The notes under the pieces are model-generated. The model worked only from the letters and a program-made list of their open reading frames with translations, searched no databases and was not told the origin of the DNA. A stretch of 23,768 nt of DNA from a virus: the IMG/VR virus record IMGVR_UViG_3300047310_000475, positions 1 to 23,768 of that record, one strand, 5' to 3'. How positions within the stretch are numbered: the first letter of the stretch is position 1; every line of letters starts with the position of its first letter. Shown here in pieces: positions 1 through 5,234 of the stretch. Made by a program: the position numbers and the translations under genes.

Positions 1-74
1 GTGAAACGCCTCCGTGCGGGCCGTTTCGCGCCTCCGATGCGCGGTGAGTCAAGCCCTATGATAGCAAAATATTT

Positions 75-105
75 GTTACGGCCGACCTGCCATGTTGGCA
101 GTAAC
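75..105. repeat. Nested inverted repeat next to an AT-rich patch
   Basis: The perfect palindrome CTGCCA-TGT-TGGCAG occupies 87-101. An outer pair, GTTAC (75-79) and GTAAC (101-105), brackets it with an asymmetric bulge. The palindrome lies immediately right of an AT-rich patch (about 58-78) and just left of the repeat array. It could be an operator or part of an origin; no function can be assigned from sequence alone. Confidence 0.6.
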
Positions 106-107
106 GG

Positions 108-353
108 ACTCGCGGACAGTCACGGACAGAGTCACGGACACCCCTTTTGCGTGTTTAGTCACGGACAGATGATTTTCTCCTGTCCGTGACTGTCCGTGAC
201 TCGGTGTCCGTGACTCTTAGCGTTGTGGGGCACAAGGTTATAGCGGCGCGTCTATTGAGTCACGGTCAGAAGTCACGGACACCAATGGAGTCGCGGACAG
301 GAGTCACGGCCAGCCCGGGGATGTAAGTACCATCCCCGGGTCTGTCCGCGACT
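108..353. repeat. Array of twelve short repeats in both orientations (consensus AGTCACGGACA[G/C])
   Basis: The exact 10-mer GTCACGGACA occurs at 119-128, 131-140, 158-167 and 272-281. Its exact reverse complement occurs at 181-190, 191-200 and 205-214. One- or two-base variants occur at 109-118, 259-268, 290-299 and 303-312 (forward) and at 343-352 (reverse). The copies form larger symmetric pairs: 157-168 with 180-191 is a perfect 12-bp inverted repeat with an 11-nt spacer, and 130-142 matches 203-215 over 13 bp. Irregular spacing, mixed orientation and short unit length argue against CRISPR. The pattern fits iterons for a replication initiator, arm-type sites of a recombinase, a centromere-like site, or a multi-site operator. 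Confidence 0.9.
314..340. other. Perfect 10-bp hairpin inside the repeat array
   Basis: The arms CCCGGGGATG (314-323) and CATCCCCGGG (331-340) are perfect complements around the 7-nt loop TAAGTAC. A forward array repeat abuts the left arm (301-312) and a reverse copy abuts the right arm (342-353), so the whole 301-353 unit is an extended palindrome. No T-run follows, so it is not a standard intrinsic terminator. A protein-bound cruciform, a recombination core or an RNA structure are all possible. Confidence 0.75.
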
Positions 354-422
354 ACCTGCCGACCTCCCGCCTCCATGGGCCGACCGGGTCAGTAACTTTC
401 CGCTTGCAATCCTGAAAAATAA

Positions 423-463
423 CCCGAGGTGTTGGGGGAGCCGGCGCAGCAAGCGCCCTCGGG
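423..463 (+). promoter_or_regulatory. Two-stem fold in the leader of the first gene
   Basis: An outer stem pairs CCCGAG (423-428) with CTCGGG (458-463). It encloses an inner stem GGCGC (443-447) / GCGCC (453-457) with loop AGCAA. The fold lies 60 nt upstream of the start codon at 523 and well before its Shine-Dalgarno sequence. Similar gene-free, hairpin-containing gaps precede the small terminase and the major capsid protein, which suggests a shared use such as transcript stabilisation or processing. That role is inferred. Confidence 0.4.
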
Positions 464-522
464 GATCCGCGGTGCACAGGGAGTGCCCGCGAAGCTGTCA
501 ACGCGCAGGGAGGTGCGGTGCG

Positions 523-1320
523 ATGATGCGGAACATTCGCGGTCTGATCGTTGGGGCGGTTCTGACCGCCGCAGTCGCAGCGCTCTTCGCTGGCTTCACG
601 CCGGGCATCGCGCACGCTCAGGGTGGCGCGGCGTTCTACATCAAGCGCGTTCCGCTCGTCGCAGCGAGGAACTCGAACCTCGCCGACAATCCCTACGTCG
701 CGACCAATCCCGGGCAGACGGCGTATACGAGCTCGCTGCTGAACGGCTGGCATGGCGCGGCCGCATCGGGCACCACCGGCATCGGTGCGCTCGGCACGAT
801 GGACACGACCGCCGCGATCGACGTGCGCGAGCACTGGTTGAAGACGCGCGTGGTCTATCTCCAGGCGCCGCTCGTCGCGGACCTCGCCGATTCCACGTTC
901 TTCGGCACACTGAAGCTCACGAGCACCGCATCCACGATCGACACGGTCACGATCCAGCGCGACGTATCCGTCGACGGGATCACGTGGACGGTGGTGGACT
1001 CGATCGCCGGCCACGTCATCTCCGATACCGCGCCGATCTTCCAGCAGAGCCAGACGCTCGACTCGACGCGCGTCATCATGCCTGCCTCTGGGAGCGTGAC
1101 GGCCTACGGTGCGGGATGGGACGTCTACCCGTTCGGCCCGAAGACCGGCGTTACGGCGCTCGCGCTCGAGGGCGTCAACTTCATTCGCTTCCGCATCCAC
1201 ATGACGCCTGGCGACTACGCCGCGGCAGGTGCGACTGGCGGCATCCGCGGCACGTTCGAGTTCCCCTCGGCCGACTCCAATCCCTACCTGCCGGCTCGAG
1301 CGGTCCCAGCACAGCCGTAA
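523..1320 (+). CDS. Exported beta-rich protein of unknown function
   Basis: This 265-aa protein was not recognised as a named family. The start at 523 is chosen because AGGGAGGTG (506-514) sits 8 nt upstream and because it gives a clean signal peptide; an upstream in-frame ATG at 472 has neither. The N-terminus has a basic Met-Met-Arg-Asn-Ile-Arg segment, a hydrophobic core (residues 7-25) and a likely signal peptidase I site after Ala32 (Ala-His-Ala/Gln). The mature part is rich in Thr, Ser, Asp, Gly and Val, with alternating hydrophobic residues typical of beta-sandwich proteins, and has no obvious catalytic motif. It precedes the terminase genes and resembles the 19932-20666 protein in size, composition and signal-peptide style. 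It could be a virion decoration protein, an exported moron product or a surface protein. Confidence 0.75.
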   Translation: MMRNIRGLIVGAVLTAAVAALFAGFTPGIAHAQGGAAFYIKRVPLVAARNSNLADNPYVATNPGQTAYTSSLLNGWHGAAASGTTGIGALGTMDTTAAIDVREHWLKTRVVYLQAPLVADLADSTFFGTLKLTSTASTIDTVTIQRDVSVDGITWTVVDSIAGHVISDTAPIFQQSQTLDSTRVIMPASGSVTAYGAGWDVYPFGPKTGVTALALEGVNFIRFRIHMTPGDYAAAGATGGIRGTFEFPSADSNPYLPARAVPAQP

Positions 1321-1477
1321 CGCGGTCCAGCATCTCTCGTGCGGCGGCGGGTTGATCTCCTTGGGGCCCGCCTCGGTGGTTGGTGACCGCACGCGCGAGA
1401 CGGCGGGCCGAGCGTCGTGAGGGTGGCAGCGCCACAAGTGGCCGCGCCCCTCGGCACTTGACTTGAGGAGCAGCGAA
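1321..1477 (+). promoter_or_regulatory. Structured non-coding leader before the terminase genes
   Basis: This 157-nt gap has no credible gene. Three helices are visible in order: GGCCCGCC (1365-1372) with GGCGGGCC (1402-1409); GTGGC-AGC-GCCAC (1423-1435); and AAGTGGCCG (1436-1444) with CGGCACTT (1452-1459), the last with one bulged base. The Shine-Dalgarno sequence GAGGAG (1465-1470) follows at once. In an operon where most genes overlap, a spacer with stacked hairpins suggests an RNA-level signal or a promoter region. No promoter hexamers are convincing. Confidence 0.45.
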
Positions 1478-1846
1478 GTGGGCAGGGGCGGTCCGGGCAG
1501 CCAGAAGACGCGGTTGATCGGCAAGGAACAGCTGGACGGAGTGCGCCAGGCGAAGAAGCGGCTCGCGGTGGCACTCCAGCGACACGGCATCCGCTGGGTC
1601 GAACGGATCATCGAGGCGGGCCCGGCACAGGTGGTGGCGTCGAACCAGAAGGACAGGCCGCGCGAGGCGGTCAGCGAGTTCGAGATGAGCGAGTCGAGGC
1701 AGCTTTTCCAGTGGGCGATGACGTTCGCAGCCGATCGCGGTGGCGGGATGCCGAGGCAGACGGACGTGCAGGTCGCAGCCGGGACGGAAGGCGTACCGGA
1801 GATCACGGTGAACATCGTCGGGCACGCAAGGCCGACTGACACGTAG
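1478..1846 (+). CDS. Putative terminase small subunit
   Basis: This 122-aa protein lies directly upstream of the large terminase. That position, its size and its charged, helix-prone composition make it the best candidate for the small terminase subunit, which recognises the packaging site and delivers DNA to the large subunit. The GTG at 1478 is chosen because GAGGAG (1465-1470) sits 7 nt upstream; TTG at 1463 is an alternative. The N-terminal half is basic (Lys/Arg-rich, about residues 8-35). A segment around residues 80-90 (Phe-Gln-Trp-Ala, then Ala-Asp-Arg-Gly-Gly-Gly-Met-Pro) resembles the Ala-x-x-x-x-x-Asp-Arg-x-x-Gly-x-Pro pattern often seen in small phage packaging proteins. No helix-turn-helix could be defined by eye, so the call rests largely on synteny. 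Confidence 0.6.
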   Translation: MGRGGPGSQKTRLIGKEQLDGVRQAKKRLAVALQRHGIRWVERIIEAGPAQVVASNQKDRPREAVSEFEMSESRQLFQWAMTFAADRGGGMPRQTDVQVAAGTEGVPEITVNIVGHARPTDT

Positions 1847-1864: not shown

Positions 1865-3409
1865 GTGTGGCATGTCGCAGCAAGGATGCTGCTGGTGGTG
1901 ATGGCCACGATGGCCAGTGACGCCGCATCCCCGCCTGTCCGTATCGCGCACGTCCTCGAGCCGGAGAACTACGCCCAGGAGCGCTTCTGGCTCTCGACCG
2001 CTCCGGTGCGGCTCCTGTCCTCGCGCGTCGGCCGCGGGAAGACCTGGGTGGTATGCGCCTCCGAACTGGTGAAGGCGCTGCAGCTCCCCGGGCTCCGCTC
2101 GGCGCTGACACGCCTCGAGCGTGCGAGCATGGAGACGACCACGCTCCAGAGCTTCCGCGAGCTGGTGATGGAGACGGTCCCCGGTCTCTGGGAGCGCGGC
2201 TGGTCGGAATCGAAGTCGGTGCTGACATTCCCGCGCACCCAGTGCGACGTCTGCTCGCGCGTCCACCAGTCGGAGATTCATGTATTCGGCTGGAAGGATC
2301 CGGGCCGGCAGTTGTCGGCCGAGTTCGGGAGCATCGCGGTCGACCAGGCCGAGCAGTTGGACCTCTCGCACTACACGATCGCCAAGACGCGGCTCCGGCA
2401 GAACAACCTCTGCGTCAACAAGCGCGCGGAGAAGCTGGGGCTCAACCCGCGGCAGATGTCGCTCGCCTGTAACCCGGAGGATTCCGAGCACTGGATCGCG
2501 CGCACGTTCGACCCGGATGCCGGCATGCGGATCGTCAACGACGAGAAGGGCCGCCCGCTCTGCGACGTGATCCTGTCCTCGTTCAACGACAATGCGCAGC
2601 ACCTGCCCGAGGGCTATCACGACGACCTGGAGACCCTGAAGGGCTCGGTCTTCTACGACCGCCTGGTGCTCGGCAAGTGGGCGCGCGCCGAGGGGCTGGT
2701 GTTCCCGATGTACGACCCGAAGATCGTAGTGCCGGCGCCGGCGGGCTGGGCGGAATGGGGCGGGTATCCCCCGGCCGACTGGCCGCGCTGGCGCGGGATC
2801 GATTTCGGGTACCGGAACCCGTTCGTCTGCCTGTGGTTGGCGACCGCGCCGGATGGGACCGACTGGCTCTACCGTGAATGGTCGCGCTCCGAGATGCTGG
2901 TCGAGGACCACGCGCGGAAGATCTGCCAGGTCGAGCACGAGGAACTGGAGGCGCTCCGGCATTGCCGTGCGCTCTCGGACAATCCTGCGCAGGCGTTCGC
3001 GATGAAGCCCTACCTCGAGGGCCTCAACGTCCGCGGCAGCTTCGCCGACCACGACGCCGAGGATGCTGCGACTCTCGCGCGCCACGGCGTGCGCACCGTC
3101 CCGGCGCGGAAGGACATCGACAACGGCATCAAGGCGGTGATCGCGTCGTTGAACTTGGACAAGTTCCGCATCGTCCAGGGTTCGCTCGTCGCCGAGAACG
3201 CGCTCGAGGTGAGCTTGAAGCTCCCGACCTCGCTCCCGAAGGAACTGTCGCGCTACACCTACCAGAAGCTGGTCGAGCGCTCGCGCAACCCGAACGACGC
3301 CGCGAAGGAGAAGCCGGTCGACGCGATGAATCACCGCATCGACGCGCTCCGCTACGTGCTCTATTCGCGCAGCGTGACGCCGCGGCCGTCTGTGTGGGTG
3401 GCGGCGTGA
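1865..3409 (+). CDS. terL: Terminase large subunit (packaging ATPase and nuclease)
   Basis: This 514-aa protein is the motor that pumps DNA into proheads and cuts the concatemer. A Walker A-like loop, Ser-Arg-Val-Gly-Arg-Gly-Lys-Thr, lies at residues 53-60. A Walker B-like strand, Ser-Ile-Ala-Val-Asp-Gln-Ala-Glu, lies at 156-163; it has Gln at the position where Glu usually follows the Asp. The RNase H-like nuclease half shows Asp313 in Gly-Ile-Asp-Phe-Gly-Tyr, Asp372 in Leu-Ser-Asp-Asn-Pro, and Asp486 and Asp493 in a C-terminal Asp-x6-Asp helix. These match the usual metal-binding acidic residues. Length is normal for the family. The start is uncertain: GTG 1865 has a nearby GGGGTG, but ATG at 1886, 1901 or 1910 is also possible, since the first 20 residues are not family-like. 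The stop overlaps the next start (GTGA). Confidence 0.93.
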   Translation: MWHVAARMLLVVMATMASDAASPPVRIAHVLEPENYAQERFWLSTAPVRLLSSRVGRGKTWVVCASELVKALQLPGLRSALTRLERASMETTTLQSFRELVMETVPGLWERGWSESKSVLTFPRTQCDVCSRVHQSEIHVFGWKDPGRQLSAEFGSIAVDQAEQLDLSHYTIAKTRLRQNNLCVNKRAEKLGLNPRQMSLACNPEDSEHWIARTFDPDAGMRIVNDEKGRPLCDVILSSFNDNAQHLPEGYHDDLETLKGSVFYDRLVLGKWARAEGLVFPMYDPKIVVPAPAGWAEWGGYPPADWPRWRGIDFGYRNPFVCLWLATAPDGTDWLYREWSRSEMLVEDHARKICQVEHEELEALRHCRALSDNPAQAFAMKPYLEGLNVRGSFADHDAEDAATLARHGVRTVPARKDIDNGIKAVIASLNLDKFRIVQGSLVAENALEVSLKLPTSLPKELSRYTYQKLVERSRNPNDAAKEKPVDAMNHRIDALRYVLYSRSVTPRPSVWVAA

Positions 3410-3976: not shown

Positions 3977-4272
3977 GCCGGATCGGGGACGCCATCCTCG
4001 CCTGCGCGGTGAGTTGGGCGATGGTCGTGCTCATCGCACTGACGCTCACGGCGTTCGGCTGCGGCCCGTCCTACAAGGGCGCGACCGCCCCGGCGGCACT
4101 CGCGGTGGCAGACGCCGACACGGTCCGCCTGATGGTCTGCGGAGACCAGCCGGTAGCGTGCCTGTCGGCCGATGACGCCGCAGCGCTGGCGCCGACCTGC
4201 CCGGAGCCCGACACGCTCCTGTGTGTCCGGGCGCTCGTCATCGCGTTCCACGTGAAACGAGGCGATGAGTGA
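3973..4272 (+). CDS. Small exported or lipoprotein-like protein
   Basis: This 99-aa protein starts at GTG 3973 (GTGA overlap). A hydrophobic stretch (residues 8-28) ends in Ala-Phe-Gly-Cys30-Gly-Pro. That could be a weak lipobox, with Cys30 lipidated, or just the end of a signal anchor; the -3 residue is not the usual Leu. The rest is Ala- and Asp-rich with further cysteines, consistent with a periplasmic or outer-membrane-facing domain held by disulfides. A spanin-like lipoprotein was considered, but there is no partner and no lysis context. Function unknown. Confidence 0.6.
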   Translation: MSRIGDAILACAVSWAMVVLIALTLTAFGCGPSYKGATAPAALAVADADTVRLMVCGDQPVACLSADDAAALAPTCPEPDTLLCVRALVIAFHVKRGDE

Positions 4273-5234
4273 AGCGCGTTCTCGTGGTGACGCCCTGGTC
4301 GGGCGGCTTCGTGGATGTGCAGCTGGGCCTGCTGCGCGGCGCCGGTCACGACGTCCGGGTGCTCCGGCTTACCGTCACGGCCGGCCCGCGCTGGTGGGTG
4401 GTTGCCTGTGCCCTGCTGCAGGCCGCGTTCTACCGCGGGCCCAGGTCGTACAGAGTCGGGGCTTGGGCGGAGGTGGTTCATGCCTACGGTGCATGGCCGG
4501 CGGGGCTCGCCGGGCACTACCTCTCGCATAACTGGAACGTGCCGCTCATCATCCACGAGCACCTCTCGCCACCGGAGCGCCTCCGTCGCCTGCCGCTGGC
4601 GGCGGCTGTGCTCGAGGATTGCGACCGTATCCTCTCGCCGAGTGAGGGGCACGCCGCGGAGGTCTCGCGCATCGCCGGAGGGCGGCACGTCGAGGTGGTG
4701 CCGAACCCGGTGGTCACGGAGTTCCGCGACTTCAAGATCACGACCGGACCGCCCCGCGTCGTCTGCCTCGGCCGCCTTGAGGGCCAGAAGGGTTTCGACC
4801 GCCTGGCATTGGCGAGCCGGTATTACGAGCCGGCGACCTTCTACTTCATCGGCGCCGGATCGCAGGAGAAGGGGCTGAAGTCGCTGGTCAATGGGAACGC
4901 GGTCTTCGTCCCGCCGGTCGATCATGCGGACGCCATGCGCTGGCTCCGGAGCGCCGACGTGGTCGCCTGCCCCTCCCGCCATGAGAGTTTCGGGCTGGTG
5001 GCCGCCGAGGCCGCAGCGATGGGGAAACCGGTCGTGGCGACGGATGTCGGCGTCCATGCCGCGGTCGCGACGGAGCTGGTGCCGCAGACTGCCGGGCCTC
5101 GGGAGTGGGCGGCGGCGCTGAAGCGCGCCTCGTTCGCTCCGCGCCTGCCGCGCCTGGTTCCCGGTAGCGCCCCGGAGGCGTTCGTCGCCGCCATGGGCCG
5201 CGCCTACGAAGTCCAGCGCGGAGGCGATGAGTGA
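4269..5234 (+). CDS. GT-B (GT4-like) glycosyltransferase
   Basis: This 321-aa protein is a probable retaining glycosyltransferase that moves a sugar from a nucleotide donor. It starts at GTG 4269 by GTGA overlap. The N-terminal Rossmann half begins Lys-Arg-Val-Leu-Val-Val-Thr-Pro. The C-terminal half has Gly-Arg-Leu-Glu-Gly-Gln-Lys-Gly-Phe-Asp from residue 168 (the GT4 nucleotide-sugar region) and the family Glu-x7-Glu pair at Glu239 and Glu247, inside Ser-Arg-His-Glu-Ser-Phe-Gly-Leu. No membrane segment or signal is seen, so it should act in the cytoplasm. Lying between terminase and portal, it could glycosylate capsid or tail proteins, phage DNA or host surface glycans. Acceptor and donor cannot be read from sequence. 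It appears intact. Confidence 0.88.
   Translation: MKRVLVVTPWSGGFVDVQLGLLRGAGHDVRVLRLTVTAGPRWWVVACALLQAAFYRGPRSYRVGAWAEVVHAYGAWPAGLAGHYLSHNWNVPLIIHEHLSPPERLRRLPLAAAVLEDCDRILSPSEGHAAEVSRIAGGRHVEVVPNPVVTEFRDFKITTGPPRVVCLGRLEGQKGFDRLALASRYYEPATFYFIGAGSQEKGLKSLVNGNAVFVPPVDHADAMRWLRSADVVACPSRHESFGLVAAEAAAMGKPVVATDVGVHAAVATELVPQTAGPREWAAALKRASFAPRLPRLVPGSAPEAFVAAMGRAYEVQRGGDE

Follow-up and report, generated by a model that had tools for sequence, protein, structure and literature searches.

A repeat array downstream of a DnaB-like helicase gene is a probable iteron replication origin in a group of uncultured phages

Introduction

A dense cluster of short repeats, present in both orientations, lies at the left edge of the structural operon of an uncultured phage (IMG/VR record IMGVR_UViG_3300047310_000475), and raises the question of what function it serves. 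The entire record of 23,768 bp was analysed (hereafter the window) and is classed as linear, which places the array at a truncated left edge. An initial annotation, made from the letters alone, had proposed an iteron origin, a recombinase attachment region, a centromere or a multi-operator switch. The data presented here confirm that the array is a real, selected, cis-acting element. It is probably the iteron replication origin of the phage, with its copies most likely bound by the putative initiator helicase encoded upstream.

Genomic context

Two sister records (L016 and L010, ~94% identical), recovered by pattern search, reach past the left edge of the window and supply the upstream genes missing there. 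Their order is a tyrosine integrase gene, one further gene, a RusA-like resolvase gene, a DnaB-like helicase gene and then the array, with ~0.25 kb between the end of the helicase gene and the first copy (L016). Downstream, the first gene is followed by those for the likely small terminase, the large terminase, the portal and the capsid (Table 1). A glycosyltransferase gene, unusual in a structural operon, is present between the terminase and portal genes (window 4269-5234), and a sister phage (G001) carries a gene for a 534-aa DNA methyltransferase, located between those for SSB and the integrase (L029:6082-7683). The window and G001 share overlaps at both ends, implying a circular map of ~40.6 kb; this composite joins two sister genomes ~91-94% identical and served for skew alone. 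A DNA search of window positions 1-1500 against the phage collection gave no matches, and a helicase alignment search of genome contigs gave no confirmed relative.

Organisation of the repeat array

The 12-mer AGTCACGGACAG occurs 13 times at ≤3 mismatches within positions 100-353 and is absent from the rest of the window at ≤2 mismatches. Nine copies are forward and four reverse, and single copies are without dyad symmetry. The cluster reported in the initial annotation is therefore real, while its count of twelve copies in ~245 bp is replaced by 13 and its left limit moves from 108 to 100; the right limit of 353 stands, with the array closing there in a nested hairpin (289-353). The inverted pair 157-168/180-191 is perfect, as had been claimed, and the pair recorded as 130-142/203-215 is likewise perfect and extends to 128-142/203-217. 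An AT-rich 25-mer at the left edge of the array opens Table 1.

Seven exact copies of the 10-mer GTCACGGACA are present, on the forward strand at 119, 131, 158 and 272 and on the reverse strand at 181, 191 and 205, in agreement with the four forward and three reverse copies originally listed. One-mismatch copies number four within the array and one elsewhere in the window (3673). At ≤1 mismatch the window holds 12 matches against 2.4 expected, a number reached in none of 100 shuffles. Local shuffles of 61-420 (n=2000) gave at most three copies of their commonest 10-mer, compared with the seven observed, which bears out the view that chance is not the cause. Whole-window shuffles also yield seven copies of some 10-mer, so that the best-10-mer count does not discriminate at that scale and the case against chance rests on clustering. 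The exact 10-mer was found nowhere else in the three sister phage records, where the array alone carries it, and it is thus not scattered through them as an ordinary repeat would be.

The array folds as single-stranded DNA far more strongly than shuffled sequence (z -8.9), which is not separate evidence because inverted copies produce such folding. No Rfam family scored above cutoff; at E≤1 the matches were eukaryotic microRNA models alone, far under their gathering scores, as is expected of inverted repeats. A T-run terminator was not found at the array. The right block runs on to 353, its four forward copies being followed by the separate GC-rich hairpin and then by one reverse copy.

Table 1. 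Features of the array and of the adjoining genes in the window.
Feature	Position	Strand	Remarks
AT-rich stretch at left edge of array; candidate strand-opening element	54..78		25-mer, 28% G+C, joint lowest of window; partly diverged in sister
Left block: copies of AGTCACGGACAG, forward at 100, 108, 118, 130, 157, then reverse at 180, 190, 204	100..216		Nested inverted repeats
Perfect 15-bp inverted repeat, left arm	128..142	+	Partner at 203-217
Perfect 12-bp inverted pair of copies (157-168/180-191)	157..191		Around 11-nt AT-rich loop
Spacer of ~40 bp separating the two blocks	217..256		Spacer of similar length at L024:4258-4301
Right block: forward copies at 258, 271, 289, 302	258..313	+	
GC-rich hairpin CCCGGGGATG-loop-CATCCCCGGG	314..340	+	Without T run
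Final reverse copy	342..353	-	Perfect pairing with copy 289-300; hairpin lies between the two
CTTGCAATCC, 3' of array; candidate part of late-operon promoter	403..412	+	Conserved in sister and L024 (CTTGCAATC in L054)
First gene 3' of array	472..1320	+	Signal-like N-terminus; homologue in L054
Likely small terminase subunit	1463..1846	+	Position ahead of large subunit; no family match
Large terminase subunit	1865..3409	+	PHROG 2, E 2.9e-20

Conservation of the array

Between the window and its sister, 2 of 148 bases within the copies differ, compared with 13 of the 86 other non-stem bases of the array (Fisher p 6e-5). The GC-rich hairpin is unchanged in its stem (0/20) and altered at six of the seven loop positions, and in the gene that follows, 17.9% of third codon positions differ. 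The copies and the hairpin stem are near-unchanged while intervening bases, loop and third codon positions drift, which argues that they are under selection.

The array has a counterpart in L024 (record G003), a lineage with terminase 62-63% identical, where it occupies the matching place (4144-4402), 3' of the helicase gene, from which a single small ORF separates it. Its layout of two blocks, converging copies, spacer and hairpin is retained, and L024:4144-4257 repeats the order of parts of the left block, with the word itself changed to GTCTCGGACA, GACTCGGACA or GTCTCGGTCA. The region is therefore present in related phages, its absence from which had been named in the initial annotation as evidence against it. 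In the more distant L057 (identity 43% for portal, 35% for large terminase and 24% for helicase), the gap directly 3' of the helicase gene contains an inverted repeat of 22 nt (91% complementary) together with a small number of ACGAAC(AAAG) repeats; the five occurrences of ACGAAC do not reach significance by k-mer count (p 0.067), and these repeats lend weak support. No helicase gene was found in four further related records, all of which are fragments. Most contigs recovered by a two-copy pattern search were rejected, having no comparable array, and several proved to be coding or tandem repeats in other backgrounds.

Base composition and strand skew

Genes run one way throughout, yet the cumulative GC skew has its minimum at or near the array, or the gap corresponding to it, in three lineages, a check that the initial annotation had suggested. 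The distance from this minimum to the array centre is 1.1 kb in the sister composite and 1.3 kb in G003, and in L057 the minimum falls at 4320, inside the gap. Block-permutation tests of location gave 0.060 (composite), 0.025 (G003) and 0.027 (L057), each of them modest and the lineages homologous. At four-fold degenerate sites of genes on one strand, the 5.5 kb upstream has a skew of -0.33 and the 15 kb downstream one of +0.06, a pattern given by both lineages tested (composite and G003). Early genes give way to late genes where the skew changes, and codon usage or transcription could contribute to the change. In each of four records (window, G001, G003 and L057), the 300 bp of lowest GC includes at least part of the array or, for L057, of its repeats.

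The upstream helicase as candidate initiator

The helicase contains DnaB N-terminal, AAA_25 and C-terminal HTH domains, and its gene precedes the array or gap in L024 and L057 also; in L024 the HTH match falls below the Pfam cutoff. The full-length model (two sequences) is poor (mean pLDDT 38), and the C-terminal part alone was relied upon. For residues ~423-487 the model gives, at fair confidence, helices and then two strands, a fold that recurs when the last 76 residues are modelled on their own (mean pLDDT 79). Many winged-helix proteins are among the best Foldseek matches of the domain, which are weak (best E 8e-3), and the models predict that it is a winged helix.

In SaPI and SCC elements, the helicases (Rep and Cch2, respectively) use C-terminal domains to bind iterons located immediately 3' of their own genes (PMC7581432). 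The present array also lies directly 3' of a helicase gene whose product has a predicted C-terminal DNA-binding domain. Because the SaPI and SCCmec domains recognise iterons downstream of their own genes, the DnaB-like helicase just upstream is, by analogy, most likely the binder of the array, acting via its C-terminal winged helix. The HTH regulator of the phage or the small terminase is a possible binder instead.

We infer that replication starts at the array, with binding and loading of the helicase proceeding as follows. The asymmetric copies of 10-12 bp would serve as iterons, with one winged-helix domain probably occupying each, and the two converging blocks would gather helicase on either side of the 40-bp spacer. 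Bound helicase may help to melt AT-rich DNA within the array or next to it, and helicases would be loaded for replication.

Comparison with known origins

The array has the clustered short word, linked helicase gene and AT-rich element of an iteron origin, together with a change in strand composition that is confounded by the early/late boundary. Its copies (nine forward, four reverse) are not one-way direct repeats, unlike classical direct-repeat iterons. One-way order is typical of plasmids, and we know of no requirement for it in iteron origins; mixed orientation is thus a difference and not a defining failure.

The origin of SaPI Rep is similar in having short iterons directly 3' of the initiator-helicase gene, with DNA binding attributed to the C-terminal domain (PMC7581432), and differs from the present case, in which the predicted binder has DnaB-N and AAA_25 domains, the element is a whole phage, and word and host are other. 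In SCCmec, repeats and possible hairpins similarly occupy the gap after the helicase gene, between cch2 and ccrC, and the isolated Cch2 C-terminal domain binds these repeats (PMC7581432). That system has three AAGTG iterons, each of 5 nt, with a CCPol-MP primase as partner, whereas here there are ~13 copies of 12 bp and no such partner was identified. Phage lambda likewise has 4-6 iterons beside AT-rich DNA, which are inside gene O and bound by its product, in contrast to the non-coding array in both orientations described here (PMC7466680). The PLE satellite also depends on a non-coding repeat region for replication of a phage-related element, but its iterons are semi-palindromic and bound by a RepA_N initiator, not a helicase (PMC7145576). 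The array is most likely an origin of this already known type, in an unstudied phage group.

Alternative functions

Of the options raised initially, the iteron origin is favoured by the position after the helicase gene, the skew minimum, the lowest GC, the selective conservation and the other word in relatives. No positive evidence emerged for the attachment region, the centromere or the multi-operator switch, with the reservation that an operator role may still apply. A cluster of operator or activator sites, through which a phage regulator bound to the copies would control a late (structural) operon promoter near 400, is an unlikely sole function. The array ends ~120 bp ahead of the first late gene, and the CTTGCAATC(C) element is conserved between them (window 403-412, L024:4430-4439 and L054 ~45-55), with a single occurrence in each of the three records counted; among the gene products of the phage are also an HTH regulator and a small protein that is possibly a winged helix. 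Set against this, individual copies lack dyad symmetry, 13 sites across 250 bp would be unusual, no sigma-70-like promoter was found and the skew minimum is left unexplained. Control of the late operon may coexist with an origin.

Binding of the array by the small terminase subunit, as a pac- or cos-like packaging site, is improbable and gained no positive evidence. The terminase genes are 1.1-1.5 kb downstream and some known pac sites contain repeated boxes, but another gene intervenes, on the other flank of the array the close neighbour, in L016 and L057, is the helicase gene, and here too the skew minimum has no explanation. Less probable still is an attP site whose core would lie in the 217-256 spacer, with arm-type sites to either side. 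Placed on both sides of a spacer that has a small inverted repeat, the two blocks do resemble P and P' arms, and a tyrosine integrase gene is present upstream; that gene ends ~2.6 kb before the array, however, with three genes between, and the 295-aa integrase shows SAM-like and catalytic domains only, without an N-terminal arm-binding domain. The conserved 22-bp core of the spacer had no exact match in the genome contigs, a set that possibly does not include the host. A partition site (centromere) of a plasmid-like prophage is very improbable: clustered asymmetric repeats are compatible with one, but the proteins scanned, which cover a subset of the genes, included none recognisable as ParA/ParB-like. 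Mycobacteriophage-type stoperators are ruled out by the confinement of exact copies to the array rather than genome-wide, and a DnaA-dependent oriC by the absence of any DnaA box at ≤2 mismatches of TTATCCACA in 1-480.

Variation of the iteron word

For the probable origin, the comparison of lineages raises the speculation, tentative at present, that the phage family keeps one origin site 3' of the helicase gene and swaps the iteron word from lineage to lineage, with the winged helix changing together with the word. If this is true, lineages with swapped words are a natural series for tracing the evolution of initiator-helicase specificity. The locus provides a candidate origin and a candidate initiator for a group of uncultured phages that has no close relatives in the collection of phages searched, and the combination of a repeat array 3' of a helicase gene, a GC-skew minimum and lowest GC offers a recipe for finding origins in such phages.

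The 10-mer of the window is also tandemly repeated inside genes of two unrelated contigs (L003:12751-12780 and L009:4271-4301), and these genes match replication-initiation or primosomal protein families, which lends side support to the origin. The repeats are possibly iterons embedded in an initiator gene, and the word shared with the window may reflect convergence. In another viral contig the 10-mer is tandemly repeated at L011:116-135. Repeats of the GTGTCACGGACACNAGT type recur in short ORFs as DT-rich peptide repeats, in L013 at ~4600, 6990 and 9630 and in L014 at ~4820.
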